Source of the DNA: Brassica napus
Taxonomy: Eukaryota; Streptophyta; Magnoliopsida; Brassicales; Brassicaceae
NCBI RefSeq assembly: GCF_020379485.1
Contig: NC_063447.1
Location: 54,425,452-54,489,451, forward strand
DNA: 64,000 bases
Direction: 5' to 3'
Numbering within the stretch: the first letter of the stretch is position 1; every line of letters starts with the position of its first letter. Shown here one piece after another: positions 3,773 through 52,370 of this stretch. Below the pieces are notes generated by a model. It worked only from the letters and a program-made list of their open reading frames with translations, ran no database searches and was not told the origin of the DNA. Position numbers and translations under genes: made by a program.

Positions 3773-4245
3773 GTAGTAGCGAGGGGGGTTAAGGTAGTGG
3801 TGGTGGTCTGAACCTCTTGAAATCCCCATTGCGTAAAGGAAAAGACCTGTAGCGGGAGGTTCGGGTACAAAAACTTGGTGCACTTCGAAGGTGTTGTCAA
3901 CCCTTAGCATATGGAGTATCTGAGTTGTAGAGAGGGTGTTGTTAACTGAATGTTGCACGATATCCGCTGCAAATATAACAGTATGAGACTCGGGATGTGA
4001 TACCAAACAACAATTTAGTGAATAAACATGGTTGATTTAGAAATTGAAAGAAAAAAAAGACACCTGTGATAGCGGCTATGTTTTCGTTTGCAACGGCAGC
4101 TCCCATAGCACCACCGGCAGCTCCCACAGCACCACCGGCCACCGGATTGACAATAATGGTAAAACCATTGCCAGGTGGAATCGTTACTCTGGCTCCTCCA
4201 CCGACCAACAAAACCACATGTCCCAGGAAGAACATTAACTTCCAT
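3773..4245 (-). CDS. Unknown two-exon gene with Gly/Ala-rich N terminus, unit A (start frame damaged)
   Basis: Exon 1 is about 4245-4064 and exon 2 begins at 3966, with a 97-bp GT-AG intron (acceptor TTTGCAG). The spliced frame reads through exon 1 ENIAAIT into exon 2 ADIVQHSVNNTLSTTQ and on to PRYYR; the 3' end is unclear. Exon 1 has the motif IPPGNGFTIIVNP followed by a GAVGAAGG-type repeat. Compared with the copy at 13381, an 11-bp deletion near the start puts the upstream ATG (MEVNVLPG) out of frame. An in-frame ATG at 4235 (MFFLGHVV) could replace it. No catalytic motif or membrane segment is evident and I do not know its function. The N-terminal motif resembles that of the cyclophilins in this window. 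Confidence 0.6.
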
Positions 4246-5100
4246 GATTTTGGATTTTTAGGGAGAGAGACTTCGGAATTAGGGTTCTAAAGTTAGAAAT
4301 GGGAAAGTGAAACGCAGATTGCTTTATTTTCCTCTGCACGCGCATAAAACGCTGTTAGGGCCGCTTCTTTTTTTTTTTTTTAAAACAAGTAGAAATAAAA
4401 TAAAATAAACTATATTTTGGCCCCACTTTTGAAATGCGGGGTTTCTTGATTTTTTTTTAAAAAATTGATATAAATTAATATTTTGAGATTGTACAGTATT
4501 ATGTCTCTGTATTATTTTGAAGCAAATAAATTATTTAAAATTATATAATTTATAAATTAATTCATTTGAGGTTTTGTATATACATTTTTATGTAACGTTT
4601 TCTTAGGTCTAGACTTTTTATTTTTGATCCAAAAAATTAACAAATTCCGACGTAAAAATATAGATTTGGTTTAGATCCTGGTCCATGGCAGAGTACCTAT
4701 TGGATATTTTTTTGACCCGTATATCTTGGTTCAGGCTGGGATCCGATTGGATACTCAAAATGCCTATAATATTGTGTGTATATTAAGTATTTTAGATATA
4801 TTTTTGGCATTACATATATTCATTTAAACTTCAGATTAAGATTTTCAGTTATACTTTTGAGTTTCAGTTAAAATTTTTTAAAATATATATTTCAAATATT
4901 TGGATGAACTTTTGGGTATTTTTTGTTTTATTGAATCAAATTTCGAGTAAAATCTAGAATATTTTGGAGATTTAAATATGTTGGATATTTGTTTGAGTGT
5001 CTAGGTAATTTCATATTTTTGGGTACTTCAGAATTTTCCTGGTTCTAAATACCAAACCAATTCGGACCTGCTATGTATCAAAAAAAATTACAACTGTTTT
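4246..5100. other. Upstream region of the unknown gene, ending at CACTA insertion site 1
   Basis: A short 5' leader with a (GA)n stretch and an AACCCTAA box on the minus strand is followed by AT-rich DNA present three times (also 13382-14236 and 47050-47910). At 4410-4441 CTAT plus an imperfect CCCC/GGGG hairpin looks like a decayed Helitron 3' end. The interior resembles the non-coding DNA of other Helitrons here. The left flank reads ACTGTTTT immediately before CACTA. Confidence 0.55.
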
Positions 5101-5560
5101 CACTACAAGAAAACATAATCTTAACGAGGGCGGTTTTCCTCGTTATTTCGTCGTAAAAGAGGCTTTACGACGAATTAGCGAGGAAACGCGTTTGCTCGTT
5201 ACACGTTCGTCGTAACACATATTTCCTCGCTAATTCGTCGTAACTTAGCGAGGAATATATTTCGTCGTAAAGACGAAGTAGAACGATTCGTCGTAAAGAC
5301 GTCGCTACAATTCCTCGTAAGGACGTCGCTACTATTCCTCGTAAATAACTCGAAAACAGTTCCTCGTAATCTACATGTAAATACCTTGAAAGATTTTCCT
5401 CGCAAAATACACGTAACAACCACGAAATGAGTTCCTCGTAAAATAGTCGTAAATATTTCCTCGTTATTTCCTCGTAAATAATTCCTCGTAAAATACTCGT
5501 AAACAGTTTCTCGACATTTCCTCGTAAGATTTCCACGTAAAGAGGTCGTACTTTAGCTAC
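5101..5560 (+). repeat. CACTA 1 terminal and subterminal repeats
   Basis: After the terminal CACTACAAGAAAAC comes about 430 bp dense in short motifs of the type TCGTCGTAAA, TTCCTCGTAA and TACGACGA in both orientations. A perfect 11-bp palindromic pair lies at 5147-5157 and 5164-5174. Subterminal arrays like this are the binding sites of the accessory transposase protein in CACTA elements. The open frames across this array are repeat artefacts. Confidence 0.85.
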
Positions 5561-5730
5561 GAATTTACTTCATTTTTATTATTTTACACAATTTTAAACT
5601 ATAATTAAAAAATAATTAAAATTATTTAATTTAATAATAAATTAAAATTCAAAATAAAAATAAATTCATATGAAAATATTTTATAAATAAATAAGTTTTG
5701 AATTTATATAATACAACAACAAAAAAAAAA

Positions 5731-7597
5731 CTAAGGGTCGTTCATCGCCCGGTAGAATTCATCACTCCTCCTCGAAACATCCGCCTCGTTATGTACGTCG
5801 TCGGATGACTCGCCATGAATGGGATGTTGTTGTCGCATGTTCCTCAACATGGACTCCCATTCCGGATTTGTGGCCGCAATAACGTCCAAGAAGCCCTCGA
5901 CTCCACCCATACGAGATTTTGTCGCGGTCAACTCGTTACGCAGCTGAGCGGACTCTCTACGCAGCTCCGTGACCTCATCATCCCGTCGCTGACCATAAGA
6001 CGATGTCGCTCTCGGAACATCATTGACGGAACCAATACCCAACGTCCGTCCCTTTTTTTAGGGACAACCTTAAAAACAAAAAATAAATATTGTAAGTAAA
6101 TATTTAAAGTTAAATTAAATGAATAATTAAAAATTAATTTTTTTGAAAATTTACCTCCTCGTAAATCTTATCCACTTCAAGTGTGGATAAGGTGACGGGT
6201 AATCCGTCGGTAGACTGCTGGGTCAGCTGAGTCTGGCGGTCTTCAACCCGAGCAACTACGTCGTTGTAGATTTGCTCGGACTTGCCATCTACAAATACGC
6301 CCGCCTTGTTGTTGTGGGTCCTCTCGTAAAGTTCCATAAGAGACGGGAGATGTCCCGTCTCTTTGGCCTAAAAAAACAGTTAAGAAAGTTAGAATAAATT
6401 AATATAATTATTAAAAAATTATTTAATAAAATATTTAATTACCATTTCCAAACGGACACCGGCGTGGGGTTTTTGGCCCGTAGTGTGAAGCATCGGCCCG
6501 TTCCCGTGCTCATCGACCGTGTTACGGGAGTTAGAGCAAGCCTGGGCGATTCTAATCGAATCAGGAAGGCGCCAATAACGGATGAGGCCATCCCACACGT
6601 CCGTGGTGAGCTCAGCGGGTTTGCCACGCTCATACCCCTTCACGATCCAGTCACCCTTCCAGTTGGAGACCGTGTCCAACAAGCGAACTTTCGCTTTCGC
6701 GTTAAACTTCTTCCTCACCCTCTCAGTGATCCCCAAAGCCCAATTATATTTTTGCTGTTGGAAAAAATAAATTAACAATTAGTTTTTTAGAAAGTATATA
6801 TATAAATCATGAAAAAATTAAAATATATATAATTAATTAATAGAAACTTACAGCGTAAATTTTGAACCACGTCTTTCTGACGTAGTGAGGCGTCTTACTC
6901 CAGTTTGGATGTGGCATGGAGAAGTAACCCTTGATCGTGTCGGTTACGTCCGATGCAAGACATCCGTCAACCCCCCACCTGGAAAAACAAATTTAAAATT
7001 TAAATTATTTTTTAATGTTATAAAAGATATTTAAATGAATTAAAAAAATTAATGCAACATACCACAACGTTCCGTCCGGTCGTTCTGGGTCGATGACTGG
7101 TAAACCTTCTCTGCCTGGCAGACTGAGAATGTCCTCTACCGTGTACTGCGAGTAAGGAGCACTCGGAGGCACCATCAGATCAGGATGAATATCAGCGACC
7201 ATCGTAGGTGCCATCGGAGGAGGCACAGGAGGAGGCATCGGAGGAGGCACATGAGGAGCCGATGGTGCACTAGAAGAAGTAGACCCAGAGACTCTCTGAG
7301 TGTACTGAGTCTCGGGGACAGTCTCCTGGCCCGAAGAACTGGGAGCGGAAGAAGAGGCCGGGTCTAAACGACTACCCGGCTCACCGAAGATCTCTCTATA
7401 ATGGGCAGTAAGTCTTCCTTTTCGAACCTGGGAAAAAAAATGAAATTTTTGAAATTAACATCAACAATATATTTTCCAACATTATCCACCTAATCAACAC
7501 TAAATAACATAAAATCCGCAAACCTATCTAAATTCCCTATACGAACCACCTAATCTATCCTAAACTAACCAAATTAGAGAGGAATCAGGCTTACCAT
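5731..7597 (-). CDS. CACTA accessory transposase protein (Transposase_24 type), frameshifted
   Basis: Six exons are predicted from GT-AG sites: 7597-7595 (ATG only), 7427-7063, 6978-6852, 6754-6443, 6367-6155 and 6068-5731. In order the protein has a Pro/Met-rich N terminus, the block VHPD-like [19 protein letters not shown], a core with [15 protein letters not shown] and [12 protein letters not shown], the segment [19 protein letters not shown], and a C-terminal coiled coil ([18 protein letters not shown]). The core matches plant Ptta/En/Spm proteins thought to bind subterminal repeats. The first five exons sum to whole codons. The last is 338 nt and reads correctly only after restoring one base in an A run near 6053, where element 2 has AAAAAGAAGGG. 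This copy is therefore probably disabled. Confidence 0.8.
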
Positions 7598-7661
7598 TGC
7601 TGCGAAATGGAGAGGAAGTAGAGAGGAAGTAGAGAGGAAAGAAAGAGTGAGCGGTCGGGTG

Positions 7662-7670
7662 TATATATAA
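7662..7670 (-). promoter_or_regulatory. TATA box of the CACTA 1 accessory gene
   Basis: TTATATATA reads on the minus strand 65 nt upstream of the predicted ATG (7597). A purine-rich plus strand (GAGAGGAAG repeats) covers the leader. Copies of the subterminal motif (TCGTCGTAAA, TTTACGACGA) lie just upstream at 7680-7830, so the accessory protein may regulate its own promoter. Confidence 0.6.
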
Positions 7671-7915
7671 GATTACATATCGTCGCAAATTCGTCGTAAA
7701 TTTACGACGAAATAGCGAGCAGTTACAAAGGCCCGTGTTTTTTTTTACGAGGAAATGGCGAGGAATCACAAAGGTCCGTGTTTTTCTTTACGTGGACTTT
7801 ACGACGATTTTGCTTACGTGGAATTAACGTGATTTATGTTTAAGTCTTTTTACGTGGTCTTTACGACGATTTCATCCTACGTGGAATTAACGAGTGTTAT
7901 GTTTAAATCCCTAGA

Positions 7916-8690
7916 ACCCCAAACCCGAAACCCCAAACCCCAAACCCCAAACCCGAAACCCCAACCCCGAAACCCGAAACCTGAAACCCCAAACCCCAGA
8001 TTCCTTATTTTCTACTTCATATATTCCAAACCCCCATCTTTAATTTTCTACTTCATATATTCCAAACCCCAAACCCGAAACCCGAAACCCCAAACCTGAA
8101 ACCTGAAACCCCAAACCCCATATTCCTTATTTTCTACTTCATATATTCCAAACCCCCATCTTTAATTTTCTACTTCATATATTCCAAACCCCAAACCCGA
8201 AACCCGAAACCCCAAACCCGAAACCCAAAACCCCAACCCCGAAACCCGAAACCCGAAACCCGAAACCCCAAACCCAAAACCCGAAACTCGAAACCCGAAA
8301 CCCGAAACCCCAAACCCGAAACCCGAAACTCGAAACCCGAAACCCGAAACCCAAAACCCGAAACCTGAAACCCCAAACCCGAAACCCGAAACTCGAAACC
8401 CCAAACCCGAAACCCCAACCCCGAAACCCGAAACCTCAAACCCGAAACCCCAAACCCGAAACCCGAAACCCCAAACCCGAAACCCGAAACCCAAACCCCC
8501 ATCTTTAATTTTCTACTTCATATATTCCAAACCCCCATCTTTAATTTTCTACTTCATATATCCCTAGAACCCCAAACCCGAAACCTGAAACCCGAAACCC
8601 CATACCCCAAACCCGAAACCTGAAACCCGAAACCCGAAACCCCAAACCCCATATTCCTTATTTTCTACTTCATATATTCCAAACCCCCAT
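7916..8690. repeat. Telomere-like 7-bp satellite, block 1
   Basis: Units AAACCCC, AAACCCG, AAACCTG and AAACTCG repeat with a 7-bp period, interrupted by copies of a spacer containing TTTCTACTTCATATATTCC. The plant telomere unit is AAACCCT, so this array has the same length and phase with the T replaced. Long open frames here on both strands encode only GFGFRVS-type dipeptide patterns and are artefacts of the repeat. Confidence 0.9.
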
Positions 8691-8739
8691 ATTTAATTTT
8701 CTACTTCATATATTCCAAACCTCATATTTAATTTTAGGT

Positions 8740-8890
8740 TTCGTCGTTATTTCCTCGTTGTCTTACGTGGTTTTTACGACGATTTAATCCTACGTGGACT
8801 TTTTGATGATTTCACCTGCGTGGACTTTACGACGATTTCATCCTACGTGGACTTTACGACGATTTGTGCTTACGTGGAATTAACGAGTGT
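8740..8890. repeat. Internal CACTA subterminal-type repeats
   Basis: Repeats of the type TACGTGGACTTTACGACGATTT separate two satellite blocks. Related motifs recur at 7680-7900, 9060-9160 and 9410-9570, between the two transposase genes rather than at a terminus. Confidence 0.75.
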
Positions 8891-8909
8891 TATGTTTAAA
8901 TCCCTAGAA

Positions 8910-9050
8910 TCAGAAACCCGAAACCCGAAACCCCAAACCCCAAACCCCATACCCTAAACCCGAAACCCCAAACCCGAAACCCGAAACCCCAAACCCGAAA
9001 CCCCAAACCCGAAACCCGAAACCCGAAACCCCAACCCCCAAACCCCATAC
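8910..9050. repeat. Telomere-like 7-bp satellite, block 2
   Basis: This is the same AAACCCC/AAACCCG array as block 1. It includes one exact plant-telomere step, CCCTAAACCC, at about 8952. It is bounded on both sides by subterminal-type repeats. Confidence 0.85.
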
Positions 9051-9165
9051 AAAGGTCCGTGTTTTTTTTACGAGGAAATTGCGAGGAATCACAAAGGCCC
9101 GTGTTTTTTAATACGAGGTATTAACGATGATTTAGCTTACGTGGAATTAACGAGGCTTGCTTTCC

Positions 9166-9175
9166 TATAAATATA
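9166..9175 (+). promoter_or_regulatory. TATA box upstream of the hairpin locus
   Basis: TATAAATATA sits on the plus strand, opposite to the element's two genes. It is followed after about 30 bp by a CA-rich start-site-like stretch (CCCTCATTCTCAAACCACAC) and about 108 bp later by the hairpin. The motif is seen; promoter activity is inferred. Confidence 0.5.
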
Positions 9176-9273
9176 CCCACAACCCTCATTCTCAAACCAC
9201 ACACAAACTCTCAAATTACACCCTATCTGAAATCACATTCCTTAGTAAAATCCTATTCAAATTATAAATATTT

Positions 9274-9391
9274 GAAAAAAATAGGAAAAGGATAAGATAT
9301 TAGAATTCATGTGGGCGAGACTTACGTATTATAATTGCTGGAAGTCTTGCCACATGTTATTCTGGTATTTTGATCCTTTTCCCTTTTTTTC
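9274..9391 (+). ncRNA. Long imperfect hairpin resembling a MIRNA precursor
   Basis: The arms 9274-9323 and 9342-9391 pair over about 48 positions around an 18-nt loop. I count one mismatch and a few one-base bulges; the other differences are G-U pairs in the plus-strand RNA (for example opposite 9295, 9299 and 9300). The loop-proximal part pairs CATGTGGGCGAGACTT with AAGTCTTGCCACATG. An upstream TATA box at 9166 is at a fitting distance. I do not recognise a known miRNA in either arm. A decayed inverted repeat that makes siRNAs is the main alternative. Confidence 0.5.
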
Positions 9392-9584
9392 TAGTTTTTA
9401 CACTACGAGGTATTTACGACGATTTCTGCTTACGTGGAATTAACGAGTGTTTTGTTTAAATCCTTTTACGTGGTATTTACGACGATTTCATCCTACGTGG
9501 TATTTACGATGATTTCATCCTACGAGGAATTTACGACGATTTGTGCTTACGTGGAATTAACGAGGTTATGTTTAAATCCCTAGA

Positions 9585-9760
9585 ATCCGAAACCCGAAAC
9601 CCGAAACCCCAAACCCGAAACCCCAAACCCCAACCCCCAAACCCAAAACCCAAAACCCGAAACCCCAAACCCGAAACCCGAAACGAGTGTTATGTTTAAA
9701 TCCCTGAATCCAAAACCTGAAACCCGAAACCCCAAACCCCAAACCCCATATTCCTTATTT
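9585..9760. repeat. Telomere-like 7-bp satellite, block 3
   Basis: This is a third, more degenerate AAACCCC/AAACCCG stretch. It is split at about 9685-9707 by a subterminal fragment (GAGTGTTATGTTTAAATCCC), which also precedes blocks 1 and 2, so the satellite and that fragment were duplicated together. Confidence 0.8.
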
Positions 9761-9823
9761 TCTACTTCATATATTCCAAACCCCATCTTTATTTCCATTC
9801 CAAACCACAATTCCCACATTTGC

Positions 9824-9922
9824 TTATTCATAAAACATACTCCCACATTACCTTATTCATAAAACAAACCCCACATTATCTTATTCATAAAACAAACTCC
9901 CTCATCTTATTCATAAAACAAA
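9824..9922. repeat. Tandem repeat of about 28 bp, four units
   Basis: CTTATTCATAAAACAAAC followed by a CCCACATTA-like tail repeats four times, shortening toward the transposase stop codon at 9927. It would lie in the 3' untranslated region of that gene. Confidence 0.85.
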
Positions 9923-9926
9923 TACA

Positions 9927-12900
9927 TCAATCGGATACATCGACATTCTCGTCATCACTGGAAACATCATCATTTTCATTAAACTCGTCTTCAACAGCTT
10001 CGTCTGTGGCATCATCGGTAAGATCTTCGTACTCGTGATTATGCGGATCAATGAGAAGGATGTCATCAATTTCTTGTTCAGGTTCCTCGACTTCATTTAT
10101 CTGTTCTTCTTGCAAAGGTGGTTCTTCTCCACTGATGATTCGTCCTCGAGGTGTAACTTTGATCACTGCTAACCAATTTATACCTGAATCTCTCATCCGA
10201 GGGTATGGAAGGAAGCTAACTTGGTCTGCTTGTGAAGCTAAGATGAAAGGCTTGAATTTGTTGTACCTTCGTCCACCGTTGACATCAACTACACCGAATT
10301 TGTTAGACCGAACACCTCTGTTGACGACGGGGTCGAACCATTCACATTTGAAGAGGACGCATTTCAGCTTCAGTATCCCTGGAAATTCGACTTCAATAAT
10401 CTCCGTCAAGATCCCGTAGAAATCTGTTTCCCCTTTCACACATATTCCATAGTTACTGGTCGCCCGCTGTCTACCATAGTCATATGTATGAAAAGTATAG
10501 CCCCGTGTGAAATACATCTGTGATGTGATGACCTTTACAAGTGGAGATTGAATTACTTCGTGTAACCACTTAGGATAATCTGCATCGTCGTCGTCATAAT
10601 CAACCTGCACAAATAAAGAGAATGTTAATGAAATACAGATAATGTATGAAAAAAAGTTTTAGTTAATACCTGATTCCGCAACCACTTAATGAAGTGTTGA
10701 TCTTTCCTTTTGTCTACGTCACTTGTGGATATACCAGGAAATGTTTCTTCGACTTGAGAAACAAATAGGCTGTAAAATCACATTTTATAGGAATGAATCT
10801 CTCGCAATTATACAATTATTTATAGTTATATGTGTTTCGAAGTGTCAATATATGTTACCTTTCAAAATAACGCATCAATGGATCTTCGCAATTGAGTAGA
10901 ATATAGGTGTGTGCACTATGAGCGTCTTCTTCACTCGACCACCAAACCTCTTTACACTTCCCACCGAGTCGCCCAATCTGGCTAAAGATGTCTGGAACAC
11001 CAGCAACGGCATATGTTGGCGCAACACCACCATCATCATATCTTCTTGGAGCTCTTCTCCGTGTACGTACTTTTGACGCAAAGTAGTACGATGTGAAGTG
11101 AGAAACTTCTTCCGTCAAACTTCCAGCAATTATAGAACCTTCAACTTTGGCGAGGTTCTTTGCTTTTCCCTTCAAATATTTCATGGCTCGCTCATACTGA
11201 TACATCCATCCGTAATGTACAGGTCCACGAAGCAATGCCTCATATGGGAGGTGGACAGCTAGATGCTCCATGACGTCAAAAAATCCGGGAGGAAATATCT
11301 TCTCCAAGTTGCACAATAAGATGGGAATGTTCTCCTGAAGCTGTTCCACAACTTCTTCTTTAAGAGTGCGTGTATTCAGATCCCTGAAAAATGCTCCAAT
11401 GCCTTTTATATTCAAAAAAAAAATTAAACACATTGTTAGTCATATATTATTTTGTAAATTATTGTGATATAATACACTACGTACCTGCAAGTGCTTCATG
11501 TACGTTTGTTGGAAGTAGCTCCGCAAATGCAAAGGGCAGTAGTCGTTGCATAAATACATGACAATCATGACTCTTCATCCCGGAGAACTTTTGACCCTTT
11601 TCAACACATCTAGAGAGATTCGAAACATACCCATCGGGGAACTTCACTTCTGATGCCACCCAGTTGAACAACACCGACTTTTTTTCTGAAGATAATCTGA
11701 ATATCGGAACGGGAACTTGTCCATTGCTTTTAATATGTAACTCGCTTCTTGAGCAAATATCCGGCAAGTCCAACCTCGATTTTATGTTGTCTTTTGTCTT
11801 CCCTGGGACATTCAATATTGTATTCATGATGTTCTCAAAGAAATTCTTCTCTATATGCATCACATCGAGGTTGTGGCGCAGAAGAAGATCCTTCCAATAT
11901 GGCAACTCCCAAAATATACTCTTCTTGTGCCAGTTGTGATGAACACCGTAAGAATCTGGCATATTACGAGGGACATGCCAATTACCACCCCAACGAACTG
12001 TTTCGTTAGCTCCGTAGTAGTCGATTTGCGCTTCAATTTGTTCTCCAGTTAGATATGGAGGAGGAGTGTCTCTCACAACCCTTTTGTGCCTAAACAAATT
12101 CTTGTTTCTTCGGTAAGGATGGCCAATGGGAAGAAATCGACGGTGACAATCAAACCAACTTGTCTTCCTACCATTCTTCAGTTGAAACGCATCTGTCGTT
12201 CCATTACAATATGGACAAGCTAATCTCCCATGTGTAGTCCATCCAGACAACATCCCATAGGCAGGGAAATCACTTATGGTCCACAAAAGCATCGCTCGCA
12301 TCGTAAAATTCGTCTTCGTTGAACAGTCATACGTCCTCACCCCTGTTGACCACAAATCCTTCAACTCTTTTATCAGTGGTTGTAGGAAAACATCCAGGGA
12401 CCTTTTTGGATGGTTCGGACCAGGTATTAATATGGTCAAGAATAGTAACTCCCGTTGCATGCACATCTCCGGTGGCAGGTTGTATGGAGTAAGAAAGACT
12501 GGCCACAATGAATATTGTCTCCCTGACATTCCGAACGGACTAAATCCATCTGTGCATAATCCGAGATACACATTCCGGATATTGCTAGCGAAATCTGGAT
12601 GTACTTTGTTGAAATGTTTCCAGGCTCTTGCATCTGATGGATGAGTCATCTCACCATCCGTCTGAGTATGCTCGGCATGCCATCTCATCTTTCCAGCAGT
12701 CTGCTCTGATTGATACAATCTTTTCAATCTGTCTGTAATTGGTAGGTACCACATCCTTTGGTACGGTACTCTATTACGTCCCCGTCCTTGCGGCTTGAAT
12801 CGTGGCTTCTTGCAGAATCGACATTCTTCTAGCTTCTCATCATCTCCCCAATAGATCATGCAGTTGTCGATGCAAACATCTATCATCTCCGAAGGCAACC

Positions 12901-13381
12901 CAAGGCTATAAACCAGTTTCTGAATCTCATAATAAGAATCAGCAGACACATTGTCTTCCGGCAAATACTCTTTAAACAAGTCCGCCCATTCGTTCATGCA
13001 ACTTTCAGGTAGATTGTGATCAGTTTTAATATTCATCATTCTAGCAGCTAACGACAATTTAGAGAGACCTTCTCTACAACCACTGTAAAGTGGTTGATTC
13101 GCCGCGCTTAACATTTCGTAAAACTTTTTTGCATCTATATTAGGTTCTTCATCTCCATCATGAGCTACGAATGCATCAGCTACCATATCATGAACCCTAT
13201 CATAATCTACGTTTGCAACGGCAGCTCCCATAGCACCACCGGCAGCTCCCACAGCACCACCGGCCACCGGATTGACAATAATGGTAAAACCATTGCCAGG
13301 TGGAATCGTTACTCTGGCTCCTCCACCGACCAACAAAACCACATGTCCTACGCCTGCTCCAGGAAGAACATTAACTTCCAT
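9927..13381 (-). CDS. CACTA tnp2-type transposase fused in frame to a host N-terminal exon
   Basis: Four exons (13381-11485, 11402-10859, 10769-10670, 10604-9927) with GT-AG borders total 3219 nt, an uninterrupted frame of 1072 residues. Residues 1-57 are host exon 1 of the unknown gene (MEVNVLPGAGVGHV to AAVAN). From residue 58 the protein is tnp2: two CxxC pairs (about 170-190), GLCTDGFSPFG (274-284), FPAYGMLSGW, and HNLDVMHIEKNFFENIMNT near residue 500 (Transposase_21 domain). A DUF4218-like region follows (HLAVHLPYEALLRGPVHYGW), then a DUF4216-like C terminus (YGILTEIIEVEFPG, LFKCEWFDPV) and an acidic tail. The usual N-terminal transposase-associated domain is missing, replaced by host sequence. 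The gene would use the host exon's duplicated upstream region as promoter. Catalytic competence is unknown. Confidence 0.88.
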
Positions 13382-14236
13382 GATTTTGGATTTTTAGGGA
13401 GAGAGACTTCGGAATTAGGGTTCTAAAGTTAGAAATGGGAAAGTGAAACGCAGATTGCTTTATTTTCCTCTGCACGCGCATAAAACGCTGTTAGGGCCGC
13501 TTCTTTTTTTTTTTTTTAAAACAAGTAGAAATAAAATAAAATAAACTATATTTTGGCCCCACTTTTGAAATGCGGGGTTTCTTGATTTTTTTTAAAAAAA
13601 TTGATATAAATTAATATTTTGAGATTGTACAGTATTATGTCTCTGTATTATTTTGAAGCAAATAAATTATTTAAAATTATATAATTTATAAATTAATTCA
13701 TTTGAGGTTTTGTATATACATTTTTATGTAACGTTTTCTTAGGTCTAGACTTTTTATTTTTGATCCAAAAATTTAACAAATTCCGACGTAAAAATATAGA
13801 TTTGGTTTAGATCCTGGTCCATGGCAGAGTACCTATTGGATATTTTTTTGACCCGTATATCTTGGTTCAGGCTGGGATCCGATTGGATACTCAAAATGCC
13901 TATAATATTGTGTGTATATTAAGTATTTTAGATATATTTTTGGCATTACATATATTCATTTAAACTTCAGATTAAGATTTTCAGTTATACTTTTGAGTTT
14001 CAGTTAAAATTTTTTAAAATATATATTTCAAATATTCGGATGAACTTTTGGGTATTTTTTGTTTTATTGAATCAAATTTCGAGTAAAATCTAGAATATTT
14101 TGGAGATTTAAATATGTTGGATATTTGTTTGAGTGTTTAGGTAATTTCATATTTTTGGGTACTTCAGAATTTTCCTGGTCCTAAATACCAAACCAATTCG
14201 GACCTGCTATGTATCAAAAAAAATTACAACTGTTTT
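13210..14236. repeat. Second copy of the CACTA 1 left flank (host exon 1 and upstream region)
   Basis: These 1027 bp match 4085-5100 (1016 bp); the 11-bp difference is the deletion in exon 1 of the left copy. It begins inside host exon 1, at GCAAACG on the coding strand, and ends at TGTTTT, exactly where CACTA 1 inserted in the left copy. At several sites it agrees with unit B against the left copy (for example GTGTTTAGG and CTGGTCCTAAAT). An AACCCTAA box (13415-13422) lies about 35 bp upstream of the start codon. Confidence 0.93.
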
Positions 14237-15620
14237 ACAGATATTTGAATTAAGCCAACAGATACTACATGGTATCATCATTTATACTCATCTGAGGAGT
14301 TTCTAATCTTCGGATTGTAAAGACACAAGAGATACATAAAGTTAAAACCCATTACTATGTGAATTCTGTACAAAAATATTTTAAAATGAGAAATAATTAA
14401 TTCAAACTGTCATTTTTAGTTGTATTAATTATTATGCTTAGGTTTGTGGTTTTAAGTTTGCTAACAAAAATTAAATCTCTATTTTGAATATCAAATATAT
14501 TAAAATTTTATAATTGGAGTAAATTTCAACATAAACTGTAAATAATATATTGAAAAAAAGATTTAACCAGAGTATTAAAAAAAATTAAAGACCAGAATAG
14601 AAACTTATAATTAAATAATGCTCACTTAATTACATCTATTCTATTTAAATAATATAACTTTATACATTTGTAAATATTAAAGGCTGCGGTTTTAGAAAAC
14701 ATTTATACCATGTTCAGACAACAACATGTACTACCTATAATCTTAGCAAATGTTTATGGTTTATGAGAAGTTGTAATGTTTATTAGATCCCTTTTAAATA
14801 TATATATATATAAGATTTTTTAGTATTCAATTCTGCTGGTTTTATTTTGCAGTATTTTTTCAGTAAAATCATAGGTAATTTAACATATTAAATTTGAATC
14901 TTCTGGTTTTTAAGTTTTCAAGGACTCTAACCTACGTGCTACGTTAGAGACACATTGTGTTTGCACATTTCCTTTGAATCATTGATAATTACTATTCAAG
15001 TGGTACAGTTTAAATACCTTCACTATAATTAGTTCACAGTTGAGATAAGTTTGCAGCGTTGACCATTCCACAGGCAAGAATAAATATGTGGAAAAGTGTT
15101 TTTGAAAGTCTATCAAAAATTAATTAATCATGTTAAAATTGTAGATATGTTTGGAGATTTGAAAATATTGTTGGAAGATTTATCACATGATAAATTTATA
15201 ATAATACAGTTTAAGATAATAAATGTTGTTAGGCATAAAAATAAAAATGGCAAAGCAAATCAAAGACAAAATTTTAGGAGGACTTATTTTTATAGTATAG
15301 ATTAATAATAATGTTGTATAGTTAAAAAAATATAAGGTAAGATCAACATATTGTTAGTCAAATAAAATGGTATAACAACCTTGTTTAAGTATATTTTTTA
15401 AAATATTTCTCTTTTAATAGTATAATAACTAAGAATATTTGCATGTTTTGGAAATAGGGGCTAAAGTTTTAGAAAGTTCGACCAAATTTTGGCAGTTTCA
15501 TTTTTAACTTTGATCCTAATTTTTTAGTCAAAATTTCATTTCTCACTTTTTTGTCAACTATCTATCTTTTTTTTTTTTTTTTTGTTCAAGTCAACTATCT
15601 ATCTACTATACCAAGTTCTG
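14237..15620. other. AT-rich intergenic DNA, no gene seen
   Basis: The same stretch occurs at 47918-49302. It has a TA microsatellite (14801-14813, longer in unit B) and scattered short frames with no family resemblance. I see no gene, tRNA or clear element terminus. Confidence 0.6.
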
Positions 15621-15639
15621 GTCAAACAAACCTATTCAC

Positions 15640-17245
15640 TGGATAGTATCTTTGTATGTCCATGTCTGATCTAACCATATTTGTATGTAGGAGGCTTTCT
15701 GCGTCTTCCCTCTCCACTGGTTGGATCAGCCATGTTCGAACTGCTTCCTTCATTGTCACCACCTTTGTTTTCTTGTTCTGTCTCAGTTTCTTTTGCTTCT
15801 TCAGTATCAGCTTCCTCATTCCATGTAAGTTTATTTGACTCACCTCCAGATTCATTTTTCCATTCCCATTCTTCATCTTCCTCAAACACCACATCTCTAC
15901 TAATGATGATTTTGCCTCTCATTGGATCGTATAGCTGGTACGCTTTAGATTCTTTATTCAATCCAAAACCACACATTTGATGCTCTTGTCATCTAGATTC
16001 TTTCGCTTCTCTTTAGGTATGTGTGTGTGCGCTAACCTCCCGAACAGTTTGAAGTTAGACACAAGAGGTCTAGTCCTACTCCATGCTTCTTCTAGCGTCA
16101 TTCCTTCCACTGCTGCAGCGGGACTTCGATCCAGAACATGAACACACCACATAGTTTCTTCTGGCCAGAAGATCTTTGGAACTTTCTTTCCACTCAGCAC
16201 GCTCCTAACCATGTTCAGTATGCTTCTGTTCTTCCTCTTTGCTATCCCATTTTGTTGGGGTGTGTAAGCTGAAGTGAGCTGTCTTTGAATTCCATAGCCA
16301 TCACACAACTCCTTGAACTCACTTGAGTTGTATTCTCCCCCTCTGTCTGATCTCAAGCACTTGATCAGAGCATGTCTCTCTCTCCACCAGCGCCTTAAAC
16401 TTCTTAAATGCATCGAGAGCTTGAGATTTTTCTGAAAGAAAATCAACCCAACACTTTCTTGAGAAGTCATCTATGAAAGTGATGATGTACCTCATTTCAC
16501 TACTGGATTCTGGAGTTATTGGCCCACAAAGGTCCGAGTGAACAAGCTGGAGGATTTGTGAAGGTCTATAATTGCTCCTTTTTGGAATGATCTCTCTCTG
16601 CTGCTTCCCTGTTATGCAATCCTTGCACAGCTTGGTAGGTGCTGTCAACTGTGGTAACCCTCTGACCATGTTTCCAGGCTTCAGTGTTTTCAATCCACTG
16701 CAACTCAAGTGCCCATACCGACAATGCCACAGGTGAGTTGTGTCTTCTGACGATGCCTTGAAGCAGAGAGGTTCTTGAGCCATCATCCTTGCATTGATAA
16801 CAAACATCCTATTGATTGTCATGGCAGAATTCAAGATCAGACCGTTCTCTCTATGGCATAGCCCACACTCTTGATCTTGAATGAGCACTGCGATCCCCTT
16901 TTCCACTAGCTAACCCACACTGATAAGATTGTTCTTGAGCTCCGGGATGTAGTACACACTCGTGATTATGTGTGAAACGCCTTCAATCTCCAACCTAACA
17001 TTTCCTTTCCCCACTACTGCCATCTTTAAGTTGTCTCCCAACTTCAGTGAATACTTGTAACTCTCATCTAGATCACTGAACCATTGTCTTTCTCCTGTCA
17101 TGTGGTTGTTGCACCCGGAGTCAAGAAACCAAATCTGATCTGAGTTTTTGATTTCTTCTCGCGCCATCAAAACCATGTTCTCGATACCCAGTACCCACAC
17201 ATATATTACATACATTTTTTTATTTTTTGAAAAATATATTACCAA
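15640..17245 (-). pseudogene. Copia pol fragment: protease and integrase, reverse transcriptase absent
   Basis: In order on the minus strand are an aspartic-protease active site (WFLDSGCNNHMTG), a GAG-pre-integrase domain (WHCRYGHLS, CKDCITGKQ), and an integrase core with HSDLCGPI, FIDDFSRKCWVDFL and DRGGEYNSSEF, followed by the YTPQQNGIAKRKNR block. A linker up to PPTYKYG ends it. An in-frame stop at about 16907 separates protease from pre-integrase, and a frameshift near 16330 splits the integrase. Gag, reverse transcriptase and RNase H are missing on both sides, and no LTR is visible. It is a dead fragment carried identically in unit B. Confidence 0.93.
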
Positions 17246-17464
17246 CAGTTATATATATATACATATATTAACAAATATTCCTTCTTTTTGGGTTTATATC
17301 ATGTTCAACGTCTCTGACTTCTTCATTTTCAGAACATGAATGCATGTGGCAGATGTGGAAGGAAAATCACCTTAGGTGCTTAGTGATCTGAGAGCAATGC
17401 ATTGCTTCTAAATTCGGTTATCAGCCATTAAACATCCCCACACCTCCACTAAACCTCTGAATAA

Positions 17465-18463
17465 CTTTGTGTTTCAGTTTGTGTGAGAAGTAGTAGATGA
17501 CCTGCCTTGATATTAGAGTTTCTCCCGGATGGAATACCAAAAAACAATATGTTCCATCATGGTGAGTAGCATATCTAGAAGGCACAGAGAAAAAAATGGA
17601 GCAGACTGACCAAATATTAAAATAAAATATTGAATTGTTTCGGCTGACAAAAATTCATTTCTAGAAAAGGTACATAAAGAGCATCAAAAAATTCATGTAT
17701 TATCAAAACCTCACTGCCTTAACCATCCATGGACTGGTTCCAGGGCATGCACCACATAACCTCTATGGACATAACCCAGTGCCTGTCAAAGCATGTTGTT
17801 GTCTTGGTTGGTTCACAGAAATAACGGAAAGAGAGATAAACTACTCATTTCATGACTGTGCAAGAACTACGCCAAAGAAGCTAAGAGATATTATCAAGTA
17901 AGAAGAAATAAGTACCTGATGGCCAAGACAAATGCCTAGAATTGGAATATCAAGAAATTCAAGCAAAAGGCGAAAACATATTCCTACAGGGCCAGAGCCA
18001 TGTTCAAGATGAGACAAACACATGTGGGTCAACAAAGGGACATAAAGCAAAAACTCAATTAAAACTAGGCTGGTGATTATATCAGCTGGACACATGGGAG
18101 AACCAGGTCCAGGCAATATGACAATAGTATCAGAAGCAGTGTCTTCATAGAAGTAACAGTAAGACGTCCACTCACAGTTCCAAATAACCACCGGAGGCAC
18201 TACACCGGATACAAACATAAGTTGAAAAACACACAGGCCGGATACAAACATAAGTTGAAAAACACACAGGATCTATGTATAGAGAGTGACAAAGAGAAGG
18301 ATAATAAGGTACCTCCATTGATAGTACTGAGTGCCTGATGTATATTGAATGTGTAACTATCGTAATTATCAATCAACAAAGTCCTCACAAAGCCAAGCCT
18401 TCTCACAGACTCTCTTCTCGGTAGACTCTTGTTAGCAATGGACGAATCTTCCAAGTGCCCTGG
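17465..18463 (-). pseudogene. Aminodeoxychorismate synthase pseudogene, 5' exons
   Basis: The minus strand carries the start of a plant folate-pathway aminodeoxychorismate synthase (glutamine amidotransferase part) with exon order kept. Exon 1 has [28 protein letters not shown]. The next has [15 protein letters not shown] and [18 protein letters not shown]. The third has [14 protein letters not shown], containing the nucleophile cysteine motif. A fourth (17805-17735) reads ALGYVHRGYVVHALEPVHG, and a frame-disturbed fifth lies near 17560-17465. Retained introns show DNA-level copying, not retroposition. The rest of the amidotransferase and the whole PabB-like half are missing, so it cannot make a working enzyme. 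Confidence 0.88.
18205..18270. repeat. 33-bp direct duplication in a pseudogene intron
   Basis: Two exact adjacent copies of a 33-bp unit beginning CCGGATACAAACATAAG lie between exons 1 and 2 of the aminodeoxychorismate synthase pseudogene. Unit B has the same duplication (51887-51952), so it predates the segmental duplication. Confidence 0.95.
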
Positions 18464-18469
18464 CACAAT

Positions 18470-18688
18470 ATGTCTCGAGCTTACTTGCCAAACCTAACAC
18501 TCCAGCTGATCCACCATGACTCTCCCCATCCTCCACTCTACAACCCTCTCGGCACCGTCTCCGACGTTCTCAATTCCGCTTTCTTCTGTTCAATCTCCTG
18601 TTCCCATCTTTACTCAAACAAAACCGATCTCAAGTGCGGTCCAGTCTCTAACGGCAACAAATACTCGGTACTCGACCAACAGCCTTAA
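18470..18688 (+). pseudogene. CDR1-like aspartyl protease fragment, propeptide region
   Basis: The plus strand reads [20 protein letters not shown], then TVSDVLNSAFFCSIS and TDLKCGPVSNG, and stops. This matches the propeptide that opens plant CDR1/nepenthesin-type aspartyl proteases (consensus LIHRDSP.SP.YNP...R...A). The R of HRDSP is H here. The fragment stops before the first catalytic DTGS. It directly abuts the aminodeoxychorismate synthase fragment in the opposite orientation, so the two host pieces were joined end to end. Confidence 0.72.
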
Positions 18689-19119
18689 AATCGTTGAAAA
18701 TAAAAGTGTGTTAGCCATTCTTATGATTTTTTGTTTTATTGAATCAGATTTCGAGTAAAATCAAGAATATTTTTGGGGATTTAAATATGTTTAGGATATT
18801 TGTCTTAGTGTCGGCTCTAGTTACTTTAGTTTAGGCAAACGGAACATGAGAACAAGAATCTCTTAGAAATCAACGACTAATGTTTCCAAATTCTAATAAG
18901 AATATCTTTAAGGAAAACATGATAAAACAGAATTTTTTTAATATGTTTCTGCAATAGCAAACAACATGATAAACTGATGATGGTTGTTATCATTATTCAA
19001 TGGTAGCCAATCTAAATTCAAGAAAAAGATAAAAACAAGAGTAACAAAATTAAAAACACACCAAACATCAAAAAGACACAAGCAAGCAACCATTGTAGTT
19101 GAAAATATCTCTGTCCGAT

Positions 19120-19776
19120 CTATGAAATCTGACCGCAGTCGATCACGACGGGCCTGGAAAGCTTGTCCCTACGAGGTTCGTGTGATATGATCCTGACCAC
19201 ATCCAATCCTTCAACAACTTGGCCGAAGACGACGTGTACATCGTCGAGTTCCCAGTTCTCGGTCAAGGAGATCAAAAACTGAGATTGGTTGGTGTCAGGA
19301 CCACCGTTGTTCATGGAGAGGATACCCGGACCGGTGTGCTTTTTGATGAAGTTCTCATCCTCGAAAAAACCTCCGGCGTAGATTGATTCGCCTCCGCATC
19401 CTTTCCTTTCGTCAGTGAAATCTCCTCCGCCAATCATATAATCGGGGCACATATGGTGGATGATTGATCCTTTGTAATGGAGTGGCTTACCCTTCTTCCC
19501 CATGCCTTTCTCGCCTGTACAGAGGGCGCGGAAATTCTCTGCCGTCCGTGGGGTCGTGTCGGCAAAGAGCTCCATCACGATCCGACCAACAGCTTTGCCG
19601 CGCACCGCCATATCAAAGAAAACCTTTGGGTTAGCCTTTCCTGGAGAGCATTCTAGGGACTTTTGAGAGGACGGATTCGTACATAGATTACCAGCTGCAG
19701 CAGAGTTTGGGTTAATGCTAATGTTAAGTCCTTCACCAGCCGGAATGTTTATGTTGATGGTAAATCCACCGGCCAT
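19120..19776 (-). CDS. Cyclophilin-like protein, 218 aa, single N-terminal repeat (unit A, first copy)
   Basis: One exon encodes an N-terminal extension (residues 1-50) with one [18 protein letters not shown] repeat, then a complete cyclophilin domain (about 51-217): [70 protein letters not shown] and a C-terminal VIDCGQIS. Cyclophilins are peptidyl-prolyl isomerases. Against human CypA as I recall it, R55 corresponds to H108, Q63 to G116, A101 to N156, F113 to L168 and W121 to E176, while M61 and H126 are kept. Isomerase activity and cyclosporin binding are therefore doubtful. No signal peptide or transmembrane segment is evident. The frame is intact in all four paralogs, which suggests a maintained protein. 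Confidence 0.9.
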
Positions 19777-19891
19777 TCTCTGAGTTTGGATCTAAGGAAT
19801 TTTATAGGTTTCCTGGGAGGAGTTATCGAGAGAGAGAGAACATATAGTTCCAATGAAAATAAATAGTAAAGTGAAGGAAGATCGTCGGCCG

Positions 19892-19900
19892 TTATATATA
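19892..19900 (-). promoter_or_regulatory. TATA box of the first cyclophilin gene
   Basis: TATATATAA reads on the minus strand about 115 bp upstream of the ATG. The leader between them has a GA-repeat tract (about 19829-19840). The paralog at 28627 has an altered sequence at this site. Confidence 0.65.
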
Positions 19901-20321
19901 GATTTTTTTAACTGTATTTTAGGTTAACTGTGGTTAAATCGAATCTCACTAGCGTTAAATCTAATATGACTGCTTCTATTTTGAAAATATTTACTGGACC
20001 ATGTCACTCCTTTTTTTTAAACTTTTATGCTTTTTTTAATTATTAAAATATATTATCGATTCTCTATACTATATCTGCGAAGTGATTTTGCCATCATTTC
20101 TACAATAAATTTCACAAAACAAATATGACATGGCTACTGAAATTGATGACATGGCTTCCGGAAAAATATGACATGGATAATTTCATTTAATGTTGATTTA
20201 TATTTTTGGCAAACTTGTTAGAATATCGTAATAATTCATATATTACATTTAATATTAATATTTCTTTTTGGTAAATTTTTTTAAAATATGATAATAGCTC
20301 ATACATCATCTATAAAATAAA

Positions 20322-20360
20322 CTAGTTTTTGACCAGCCTTAGAAAGCACGGGCTTTGGAT
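20322..20360 (-). mobile_element. Helitron 3' end
   Basis: CTAG at 20322-20325 follows AA and is followed by TTTTTGACCAGCC and a degenerate hairpin (arms around GCC...GGGC). In plant Helitrons the 3' end is a short hairpin followed by CTRR, here read on the minus strand. The same end recurs at 54004 and, better preserved (GACCCGCC), at 62068. The 5' end was not located, so the element's length is unknown. Confidence 0.6.
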
Positions 20361-20786
20361 TATAGATAAAGTTTGATATGAATTAGTATTTTGGGATTGT
20401 TGTACATTACTATGTTACAAAATGGTATTATATCGAGAAGAGAATATGTTTAAAATTATATGACTTATGAATTAATTTATTTGAGATTTTGTATATACAT
20501 TTTTATATAACTCTCTCTCTCAAGCCTAGGCATTTATTCAAATAAAAAAAAAACTGATCGGATCCAGGTCCAAGATAATGTATATATTGGGTATTTTTCG
20601 GACCAACATATCTTGCTTTAGTACGGATCCTACTCAAGACTCGGATACCCAAAGTACATGAAATGTTTTGAGTATATTAGTATATTTGAGTATTTCGAAT
20701 ATATTTTTGGTATTATAGATATTCTTTTTTTGTTTGTTTTGGGTTTGAGTTTTCAGTTTTACTTTCAGGTTTCAGGTAACAAAAAC

Positions 20787-20850
20787 GAGCTCCACTCGGG
20801 TTGAACTCATGTAAAGTGGAGTGACGCTTCAGTACCACTGGACTAGGGAT
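20787..20850 (-). repeat. tRNA-like SINE head, copy 1
   Basis: On the minus strand TAGTCCAGTGG fits the Pol III A box (TRGYNNAGTGG), and 38 bp further AGTTCAACCCG fits most of the B box. The module ends at GAGCTC. Near-identical modules occur at 27221, 30899, 54469 and 62678, in different flanking DNA. No poly(A) tail or target duplication was identified. Confidence 0.45.
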
Positions 20851-20879
20851 GTTGTCATGGGTAAAATAACTCTATCCGG

Positions 20880-22391
20880 CCCGAACCCGAATCAAACCCG
20901 CCCAAAAATACCTTAAACTAGAAAACCCGAAAAAAATTCGGTATCATTAGGGTAACCCACGAAAAACCGGTAGAATTTTAGGTTTACCCGCGGGTACTTG
21001 AATTTTTTTGTCAATAATCTTTTTTCTAAAGTTTTTCTGCTTATTCAATCAAACTTAACATGTTAGCTTTATATAAAAAAAATGGGTTTGTCAACAATCT
21101 TTTTGTTTGTTGTTGATATGAGTTATTTGAACTAAGCCATGTAAACAAACATCCACGCACTTACTAAGATTAATCAAAAAAAAAATCAAACAAAAATTAA
21201 GAAAAATAAAAATAGAGCGAAAAGATATGGTTCAATTCCAAGAAACGTGGTAAACAGAATATTCAATCCAAGATTCTCGGCGAATCCACTTCTCCGAACA
21301 AAAGATAAGACATTAAGTAAAACGTCATCGTTTAAACTAACAATACATTTTTTTAAAAAAAATGCCATAGGGTTCCCGAAACCAAGAAGGTAAAACCCGA
21401 TCGGATAATTTATAAACCAAGAACCACCCAAAATAAACCCGCGAAATTTGGAAACTAAACATACGGGTTTTGGGTTTTAGATTTTAATAGGGCTTAGGGT
21501 ACCCTATGGATTTTTACCCATTATTAACATTCCTACACTGGACCATCAGAAATTATTAGAAATATTTTCTTCAAACATTAAATAACCTAAACTATTAGAT
21601 ATTCAACCTAATCTCTGATTAATCCCCAAATTTTCCATTTGTAAAAATGTTTGTTGATTCCAATCGACAAACCTCAATTTTGTTTTAAAAAAATTATTAA
21701 GAAGAATAAGAGAAAAAGCTTTACAGGATATTATAATAAAAAATTTAAATATTTTTTTCCGAAGAATATGAATATTTGATACCTTAATAAAACTAGATTT
21801 ATATTAAATAACTTTTATTATAGATTGTATAAGAATCTACAATTTTATGAATTATCAATACAATTAAAACAAAAATTTTTTTATCTACTAACGAATAGCC
21901 TAGGTTAAACCATTACATTTAACTACATTTCCTATTATTTAAATTAAATCTAACTTAATTATTATTAAATATACGTATTGCCTAAAATTGAGGAATTAAT
22001 TATATAATCAATTATTTTTGAAACTTTTTTTTATCAACAATTATTTATTTTTGAAACTAATTAATTCAATTTATATGAACACTAAATATAAGTATCTAAT
22101 CTTTACGGGTTTTGCATGATATACTAGAATGTTAAATACTAAAATTTAAGTAACTAATCTTTACAGGTGTATTAAATAGTATATGCCAAATTCAGTTATT
22201 TAGTTATCAGAAAATGGTGGCTCTATTAGGACTAAAATCGATTTTACTATTGTGCTTAATAATTTGATAGGATAAGGCATATATTTAATATATAGTTAAT
22301 TTAAGTAGAAATTACTGAGATTCAAATAAATGTAATGGTCTAATTATAAATTTTTGTAAGTAGATGTTTAATGTTTTTGCTTTAATACAAC
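20880..22391. other. Repeated intergenic spacer, no gene
   Basis: AT-rich DNA also found at 54560-56073 and 62762-64000, with parts at 27280-27740 and 32940-33468. It has a patch of CCCGAA/CCCGCC-type dispersed repeat near 20880. The short frame at 21186-21431 is conserved only because the DNA is duplicated, and it frameshifts in the third copy. Confidence 0.6.
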
Positions 22392-24440
22392 CCACCTTTT
22401 GTAAGAACTAGGGCAGGCGGGTTAAAAAATAATATAAATTACTTAAGATGCTTAATTTATTTTTAACTGAAATTAAAATTAATTTTAACGTTTTTTATTA
22501 AATTTTTTATTAAAACATTTTATCTATTTATTTGACTATTTAATTTAAAAGTGTAAATTTATTAATTAATGAAAGTTTTATTGAAATTATTATTTTGTTT
22601 TTAAATGTTTTTTTAATTTAACTATTGTAATAGTTAAAATTAATTTTAAAAATTGGTCGATGAGTTTAGGGAAGTTATAAGTAATAACTAATAAGTATTG
22701 AGAAGTTTAGACTACATAAAAATTCAAAAATGATCATTACTATTTAAAATATTATAGATGTTTGTGCGACTTTTAAAATATATATAGATGATGTTTGAAA
22801 ATAAAATAAATCACATAATCTAAGTAAGTCATGATTAGAATTTTAAAAATAAATGGCACTTGGCAATTAGTATAGTATAATTCTTACACTTTACTATATA
22901 TAATTAACTCATTATATATTAATTAATAATTTTTATTATATATTCTGATTTCATTTAAAATATATTATTTATGTATAACATGCTAAAGTATTTTTATTAT
23001 AATTTTGGATTATATAATATTTATTCAATCAGATTTATTCTTTTAAATAAGAAGTTTTTAAACTTAAAAGATTGGAAAGTAAATTATTTACTATATTATT
23101 TTAATAATTTATTTTAAATATATGATCAATTGTTAAATGAAAATGAGTAATTGTTTTTTAATTTATTCACATATATATTAAATTATTAAAAAATGAAAAA
23201 CATTTGATTATTTTTTCAAATCAATATATATATTTTTAATTATGTAAAATAAAAGATTATAATGTTATGGTATACACGGGGAGGATGATGACATTCATAA
23301 AGCTATTTTTAAACATAATATGATTTTTAAATACTTAAATTATAATTATATTTGTAGAATTGAATTTGTTAGTTGTTAGAAGTGATGAAAATTGTTTTTC
23401 TTTATAAAGACTATGGATCGTTACCCGCGCCAAGGCGCAGAGTTTTTGCATTTTAATCTATTTTTGTCTCTTACTTACTAATCTAGCATTCAGTTTTTCA
23501 ATGCATTTTATCTTCACCATCTCCTCTTGTCTTGTTTACATTTGTTTTCACGTTCTGTCGTTTGATTTGTCTTAGTTTTGGCTTGTGTAATAACTTAACC
23601 CTGCTCATTCTTCTTTCATTCTTTATTGATTGATATTTTTATCTCGCATAGCTCTGTGTTGCCACTAATTTGCTCGAATCATTTTTCTTCATCTGCTTCG
23701 TATTCTTTTCATATTCATTAACTATTGTCTCCAATCTCTTTAAATCCTACATGTTCTTTTGTTTATTAAATCAAATATTAAATATTGTTGAAACTGTTTA
23801 TTTATTCTAATAAATCCTTACGATTATAACTAAGATGATATGGATAAAAGACTGATTATAATTTAGTTGAAATTAAAGTCTAAAGTAGAAGTTATTAAAC
23901 TTGCAATCCTTCTTTTTGTCATCCAAAATAGCTTTAGTCAAATCAATTATATTGATTTATAAAACCCATAAGCTATTTCAATCCCAAACAATAAAAAACA
24001 GGCGCATTTGTTATTGACGCTGCGGCGGGATTCCTTTACTATAAACATAACTGTTTGTCACAACTGTTAATAAACCCAAATGTGTTTACAAAAGCTACAC
24101 ATATAAGAGTTTCATACTCATTTCTCTTTCTCTAGTCATCTCTTATGTTAGTAGCTATCATAATACAATCATCAAACAAATGACGTATCTCTTGGTTCCA
24201 TAAAAAATATGCAAAATGACTGTTTTTTGCAGACTCCATGATCACTGAGTATTATAAATATCAAACTCTGTCTATGGTCTATTTATATGTTGAGAAAATG
24301 TCTCGAAATGTAGCCTCCAAATAATGATTTCCAGGTCAACACACTGCATGTGAACCTCCACAATGGGATCATCGGATCTGCAGATACCGCTACATGTCGA
24401 GTCGAACATAGCTACACATATGTTCCCTGCTTGTGCCTTT
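22392..24440. other. AT-rich spacer unique to unit A
   Basis: No gene recognised. At 23411-23438 a CTATGGATCG stretch followed by a perfect GCGCC/GGCGC hairpin could be another Helitron end (CTAT instead of CTAG). A minus-strand frame at 24272-24472 (containing [19 protein letters not shown]) may be an exon remnant, but I cannot assign it. Confidence 0.5.
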
Positions 24441-27220: not shown

Positions 27221-27279
27221 GAGCTCCGCTCGGGTTGAACTCAGGTAAAGTGGAGTGACGCTTCAGTACCACTGGACCA
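27221..27279 (-). repeat. tRNA-like SINE head, copy 2
   Basis: Same A-box/B-box-like module as at 20787, at the end of the 705-bp array. The DNA beyond it resumes the spacer otherwise found at 21545. Confidence 0.45.
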
Positions 27280-46555: not shown

Positions 46556-47049
46556 GTAGTAGCGAGGGGGGTTAAGGTAGTGGTGGTGGTCTGAACCTCT
46601 TGAAATCCCCATTGCGTAAAGGAAAAGACCTGTAGCGGGAGGTTCGGGTACAAAAACTTGGTGCACTTCGAAGGTGTTGTCAACCCTTAGCATATGGAGT
46701 ATCTGAGTTGTAGAGAGGGTGTTGTTAACTGAATGTTGCACGATATCCGCTGCAAATATAACAGTATGAGACTCGGGATGTGATACCAAACAACAATTTA
46801 GTGAATAAACATGGTTGATTTAGAAATTGAAAGAAAAAAAAGACACCTGTGATAGCGGCTATGTTTTCGTTTGCAACGGCAGCTCCCATAGCACCACCGG
46901 CAGCTCCCACAGCACCACCGGCAGCTCCCACAGCACCACCGGCCACCGGATTGACAATAATGGTAAAACCATTACCCGGGGGAATCGTTACTCTGGCTCC
47001 TCCACCGACCAACAAAACCACATGTCCCAGGAAGAACATTAACTTCCAT
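46556..47049 (-). CDS. Unknown two-exon gene with Gly/Ala-rich N terminus, unit B (start frame damaged)
   Basis: Exon 1 is about 47049-46847 and exon 2 begins at 46749, with the same splice sites as the unit A copy. It shares the 11-bp deletion that puts the MEVNVLPG start out of frame, leaving an in-frame ATG at 47039. It has one extra 21-bp unit in the Gly/Ala repeat (GAVGAAG three times instead of twice). Exon 2 runs into unrelated DNA at 46555, so its C terminus is not native. It probably does not make the original protein. Confidence 0.55.
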
Positions 47050-49302: not shown

Positions 49303-49321
49303 GTCAAACAAACCTATTCAC

Positions 49322-50927: not shown

Positions 50928-51146
50928 CAGTTATATATATATACATATATTAACAAATATTCCTTCTTTTTGGGTTTATATCATGTTCAACGTCTCTGAC
51001 TTCTTCATTTTCAGAACATGAATGCATGTGGCAGATGTGGAAGGAAAATCACCTTAGGTGCTTAGTGATCTGAGAGCAATGCATTGCTTCTAAATTCGGT
51101 TATCAGCCATTAAACATCCCCACACCTCCACTAAACCTCTGAATAA

Positions 51147-52145: not shown

Positions 52146-52151
52146 CACAAT

Positions 52152-52370
52152 ATGTCTCGAGCTTACTTGCCAAACCTAACACTCCAGCTGATCCACCATG
52201 ACTCTCCCCATCCTCCACTCTACAACCCTCTCGGCACCGTCTCCGACGTTCTCAATTCCGCTTTCTTCTGTTCAATCTCCTGTTCCCGTCTTTACTCAAA
52301 CAAAACCGATCTCAAGTGCGGTCCAGTCTCTAACGGCAACAAATACTCGGTACTCGACCAACAGCCTTAA
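52152..52370 (+). pseudogene. CDR1-like aspartyl protease fragment, unit B copy
   Basis: Identical layout to 18470-18688, with one visible change (SCSRLYS instead of SCSHLYS). Truncated before any catalytic motif. Confidence 0.72.

Follow-up and report, generated by a model that had tools for sequence, protein, structure and literature searches.

A host coding sequence and a CACTA transposase form one open reading frame at 9927..13381 of a 64,000-nucleotide stretch of the Brassica napus genome (C348:54425452-54489451; hereafter the window). The fusion very probably originated by insertion of a CACTA element upstream of one tandem copy of the host gene, followed by a deletion and a chance in-frame join, and on this evidence it is not a domesticated gene. 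It is apparently a young rearrangement within a young, high-copy CACTA family, as judged from sequence comparisons with relatives of the element and of the host exon. The genome searched contains 997,428,009 bases and presumably represents the cultivar Da-Ae. According to its description (PMC10085753), the Da-Ae assembly used PacBio subreads with a mean length of about 11.2 kb together with Canu, Pilon and Hi-C. The features of the window are given in Table 1.

Table 1. Coordinates of the fusion gene, the CACTA element and the three copies (A, B and C) of the host exon in the window
Feature	Position	Strand	Details
Fusion gene model, 1072 aa	9927..13381	(-)	Exons 13381-11485, 11402-10859, 10769-10670, 10604-9927
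5'-truncated CACTA element, 8110 bp	5101..13210	(-)	Compared with 20 relatives
Surviving 3' terminal inverted repeat, TTTTCTTGTAGTG	5101..5113	(-)	
Second element gene, Transposase_24 (PF03004)	5731..7597	(-)	Limits approximate; last exon has a frame break
Host/element junction	13210..13211	(-)	G at 13210 common to both sides (1-bp microhomology)
Host copy A, upstream region and 5' leader	13382..14236	(-)	Common to copies B and C; A-B and three-way alignment
Host copy A, exon 1, first 57 codons (MEVNVLPGAGVGHVV...AAVAN)	13211..13381	(-)	Remaining exon and gene missing
Host copy B, upstream region	4246..5100	(-)	Begins at the element end; A-B and three-way alignment
Host copy B, exon 1	4064..4245	(-)	Carries the 11-bp deletion; second ATG, in frame, at 4235
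Host copy C, exon 1	46847..47049	(-)	Carries the deletion of copy B and, in addition, a 21-bp repeat unit; second ATG at 47039

Spliced translation upheld the gene structure proposed in the sequence-only reading, namely four exons with GT-AG borders and 57 host codons in frame with a tnp2 transposase, joined at 13210. The exons total 3219 nt, or 1073 codons including the stop, the only stop is the terminal one, and all three introns have GT-AG borders. Residues 1-57 are host-derived and the sequence from 13210 onward is that of the CACTA element. The predicted fusion protein contains Transposase_21 (PF02992; residues 242-453, E 2.3e-79), DUF4218 (residues 642-753) and DUF4216 (residues 920-986). 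A Pfam search of the fusion protein detected no Transpos_assoc domain (PF13963), which complete relatives carry, in agreement with the proposal that a host N terminus had replaced the usual N-terminal domain. The host upstream region accompanies the fusion, as had also been proposed, and is common to copies A, B and C.

The junction lies inside an exon on both sides. The letters at the join are GCAAACGAAAACATAG in host copy B, GAGATGGTAGATT in the relatives of the element and GCAAACGTAGATT in the window. Base 13210 is compatible with either parent, which leaves 13211/13210 and 13210/13209 as the two positions of the join. The fusion junction was found at one place in the 997-Mb genome when up to three mismatches were allowed. 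One breakpoint is within host exon 1 and the other within the first exon of the transposase, and no splice site is present at the join. In copies B and C, host exon 1 extends 22 nt further and ends in GAAAACATAGCCGCTATCACAG followed by GT. Because the host exon of copy A is cut before this point, the arrangement, earlier described as an exon joined to a transposase, is not an exon-to-exon join. An exon-exon join and retroposition were both rejected, as both breakpoints are intra-exonic and three introns are retained. Fusions between host genes and transposases usually arise via splicing or through an intron, whereas here the join is inside exons on both sides.

The transposase part belongs to an abundant family. 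Forty places were scored out of 1337 candidates, and the 311 bp from 13210 onward had 99-100% identity to the 39 other scored places, 20 of which were examined as relatives. A 42-mer at the junction base matched 1,117 places in the genome with at most one mismatch, indicating a high-copy family, and a longer 54-mer matched 911 places with at most three mismatches; as the two thresholds differ, 1,117 minus 911 is not the count of truncated copies. Among the matches listed, four places that appeared only under the 42-mer were picked by eye, and none was 5'-truncated; all four were complete at this end and differed by point changes or slightly in length. Both terminal inverted repeats (TIRs, CACTACAAGAAAA), beginning CACTA, were present within a 10-kb stretch in 17 of the 20 relatives, and 16 of these 17 had equal 3-bp target duplications. 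One complete-looking relative (L031) had flanking triplets that differ (ATA vs. GCC), as after recombination or loss of a flank.

Comparison with these relatives defined what the fusion copy has lost. In 19 of 20 relatives a 5' TIR precedes the base corresponding to 13210 by 813-866 bp, and in all 20 an in-frame ATG precedes that base by 381 nt. The 127 codons that are lost encode Transpos_assoc (PF13963, E 2.9e-22 in the one relative whose sequence was tested). The fusion copy lacks the 5' 813-866 bp, including the 5' terminus, the 5' TIR, the start codon and these 127 codons, and is not a two-termini element; it has the 3' CACTA TIR only, which is flanked by AAA, the 5' flank having been lost. 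The locus should not move as a CACTA element because one terminus is missing. With CACTA (En/Spm; PF02992, PF13960, PF13952, PF03004) elements it shares the 3' TIR, the tnp2 gene and the second gene, while the 5' end, 5' TIR, start and PF13963 are present in the relatives but not in the fusion copy. The break in the second gene involves a homopolymer whose length is unlike that in 18 of 19 relatives that could be read at this position, and it could also be a sequencing error. The full transposase frame (1142 aa) was uninterrupted in 11 of the 20 relatives; eight were broken, and one (L014) was unspliceable, with an internal loss. A telomere-like, degenerate GGGTTTC/GGGTTTG minisatellite at 7850-9740 separates the two element genes, and this middle part of the element aligns piecemeal with the relatives, whose lengths vary.

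The host exon has three occurrences in the window (A at 13381, B at 4245 and C at 47049), and a distant relative is present on C294. The host gene encodes an uncharacterised Brassica protein with relatives in B. napus (P0002, LOC125585252; P0003), B. oleracea (P0005) and B. cretica (P0006), and no Pfam family scored above its cut-off. The normal gene of copy B runs on into two more exons. Alignment bore out the three host exon copies of the sequence-only reading and the 11-bp deletion common to two of them (B and C). The statement that only copy A has an undamaged start was correct for the first ATG, which B and C have out of frame; 10 nt further on, however, both have a second ATG that is in the host frame and gives MFFLGHVVLLVGGG.... 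The B. napus protein record P0003 (MFFLGHVV...) begins as the second ATG of B and C would, so these copies are not simply frame-dead. The 57 residues of copy A are identical to the start of the B. cretica protein P0006, and the distant copy L012 reads MQVTLVPEVQAHLVFLEGGG in one frame, with P0007 and P0008 beginning likewise. Both L012 and P0006 support the undeleted form of copy A as the likely ancestral one. The exon-1 variant of P0002 has two GGAMGAA units; one DNA spelling of this variant had no exact match in the genome, its only near matches, with 1-2 mismatches, being A, B and C.

Copies A and B are the closest pair. Their identity was 98.4% over 1027 columns (4085-5100 vs. 13210-14236), with about 4 differences in about 1,000 sites of the upstream region. 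In gap-free columns of the three-way alignment, 22 sites single out C, three single out B and five single out A, and four of the five singling out A lie past the junction. A and B are sisters by substitutions, yet the 11-bp deletion is common to B and C (4064-4245, 13211-13381 and 46847-47049); this discordance probably reflects gene conversion or an old polymorphism within the array. The A and C units (13216-22391 and 46895-56073) share 9.19 kb at 99.24%, and their promoter-proximal 1 kb is more diverged (the 22 sites at which C differs from A and B). Copy C has a few additional bases (CTCCT) beside the CACTA insertion site (about 47895-47905 vs. 14230-14240). Four tandem repeats of about 705 bp are present at 24439-27277, with more copies near 30-33 kb and 60-62 kb.

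The homology between A and B stops exactly at the 3' end of the element. Copy A has the uninterrupted empty site CTGTAAAACAG, and copy B has TAGTG followed by AAAACAG. The 3' end of the element abuts the upstream DNA of B and the site is empty in A, which places the element upstream of B; the AAA after the TIR is consistent with duplication of a 3-bp target within the CTGTAAAACAG site of copy A. Taken together, the terminus, the flank and the empty site suggest that a young CACTA element probably entered a local tandem array by cut-and-paste, about 855 bp upstream of host copy B. A deletion then would have removed the rest of copy A through the first 813-866 bp of the element, with one endpoint inside exon 1 of A and the other inside the transposase's first exon, and would have been healed by end joining with 1-base microhomology. 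Both boundaries are seen in the window; the deleted stretch is not visible, so its content, the end joining and a single deletion rather than several steps are what we infer. The two frames matched by a 1-in-3 chance, which put a host leader, a host start codon and 57 host codons in front of a tnp2 frame that is complete except for its own 5' end, start and N-terminal domain. Any transcription would come from the promoter of copy A, and silencing with the rest of the family would be the most likely fate. The fusion appears very young, with 8-19 mismatches over the gene when compared with each of 19 relatives.

The open frame needs no selection. When two open frames meet, an in-frame join is expected about once in three. 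Relative to 19 relatives (L014 excluded), the fusion copy has five private coding substitutions, three replacement and two silent, and the expectation for this frame without selection is 3.8:1. About 5% of random changes in the fusion frame create a stop, so that after five changes the frame would remain open in about 77% of cases. The 11 intact frames among the 20 relatives, the 3:2 private changes, the 77% and the 1-in-3 join do not call for selection. Four of the five private substitutions are C>T or G>A, a bias that would fit methylated, silenced DNA, though the changes are few. In pairwise comparisons with the 19 relatives there were 3-7 replacement and 1-9 silent codons, and the ratio was below 3.8:1 in all but one or two pairs. 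Since the private changes do not show this silent excess, it may be read as constraint in the past of the family and not after the join, with the five private changes being few.

Protein searches for the fusion elsewhere gave no second example among the matches listed. Residues 1-58 of the fusion protein matched none of 454 candidates, proteins of about 590-1876 aa, at E <= 0.001. The host 57 residues were matched by none of the best 120 of 944 matches (7,986 candidates scored). The best match to the first 500 residues, P0010, aligned from residue 58, and whole-query alignments of 22 of the 120 listed matches started at residues 17-50 without matching the host 57 residues. The protein set was clustered at 90% identity, and clustering or scoring limits could hide a fusion, which would make this absence weak evidence. 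The literature search returned no description of this fusion in the titles or opening abstract lines of the matches listed.

The sequence-only reading had offered two options, a chance in-frame fusion or an early step toward domestication, and the former is the better of the two. A nascent host-transposase fusion gene, driven by the promoter of copy A and already entering use by the plant, seems very improbable, even though the 1073-codon frame is open, the host leader, start and splice sites are retained, one terminus is lost and pairwise codon differences are silent-rich beyond chance, the last being family history. The relatives are equally intact, the second gene is broken, the element is truncated, the fusion is very young and no fusion protein was found in the clustered set, so this option received no support; the 3:2 private changes also speak against it, weakly. 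For selection on the frame, the five private substitutions are uninformative. Host promoter control of the transposase is structurally possible from the arrangement of leader and start. That the transposase, immobilised and with a swapped N terminus, might be expressed from the host promoter and act in trans on its relatives or repress them has a very small chance of being correct.

The fusion join is most likely real. The junction was seen in one assembly and sits between two kinds of repeats, which would favor a chimeric join of copy A to a CACTA copy during assembly, and the PacBio subreads from which the assembly was probably made averaged about 11.2 kb in the part of the description consulted (PMC10085753). 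The P0002 record is on a contig of 62,924,550 bp, 2,264 bp more than C348, and with the one spelling tried the genome gave no exact match to the exon-1 variant of this protein. Homology at the join is a single base, however, and an overlap assembly would presumably need a chimeric read; in addition, the other end of the element exits via a proper TIR into the adjoining tandem copy. An artefact is accordingly unlikely. Simple insertion into exon 1 of A was rejected, the 3' flank belonging to copy B. A partial element might have landed straight in exon 1 of A by abortive transposition or gap repair, with the DNA between A and B lost separately, and the 5' truncation alone would fit abortive repair; nonetheless, the 3' flank is B upstream DNA at about -855 and not the remainder of A exon 1, so that a second loss is needed, and such a landing is extremely improbable.

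Host-transposase fusion proteins such as CSB-PiggyBac and SETMAR are conserved or functional. In the portions of the reports consulted, CSB-PiggyBac (PMC2268245) and SETMAR (PMC8327481) resemble the present case in having a host N terminus and a transposase in one frame and differ in being conserved or functional proteins, whereas the fusion described here is very young and known from sequence. FHY3/FAR1, DAYSLEEPER and MUSTANG likewise have a transposase frame without a complete TIR pair, and they are derived from MULE or hAT elements and are generally single-copy, as described in the part of the source covered (PMC2528002); the fusion, in contrast, retains one TIR and belongs to a family whose 42-mer occurs at 1,117 places.

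The locus illustrates how a chimeric frame can arise when a deletion links one copy of a tandemly repeated gene to a transposon lying upstream of the following copy. Intactness of the frame is no sign of use, as 11 of the 20 family members examined are equally intact. If transcribed, the fusion would be a very young case in which to test whether promoter capture precedes silencing, and, if the trans-acting reading were true, it would allow the beginning of transposase capture to be observed in a crop plant.
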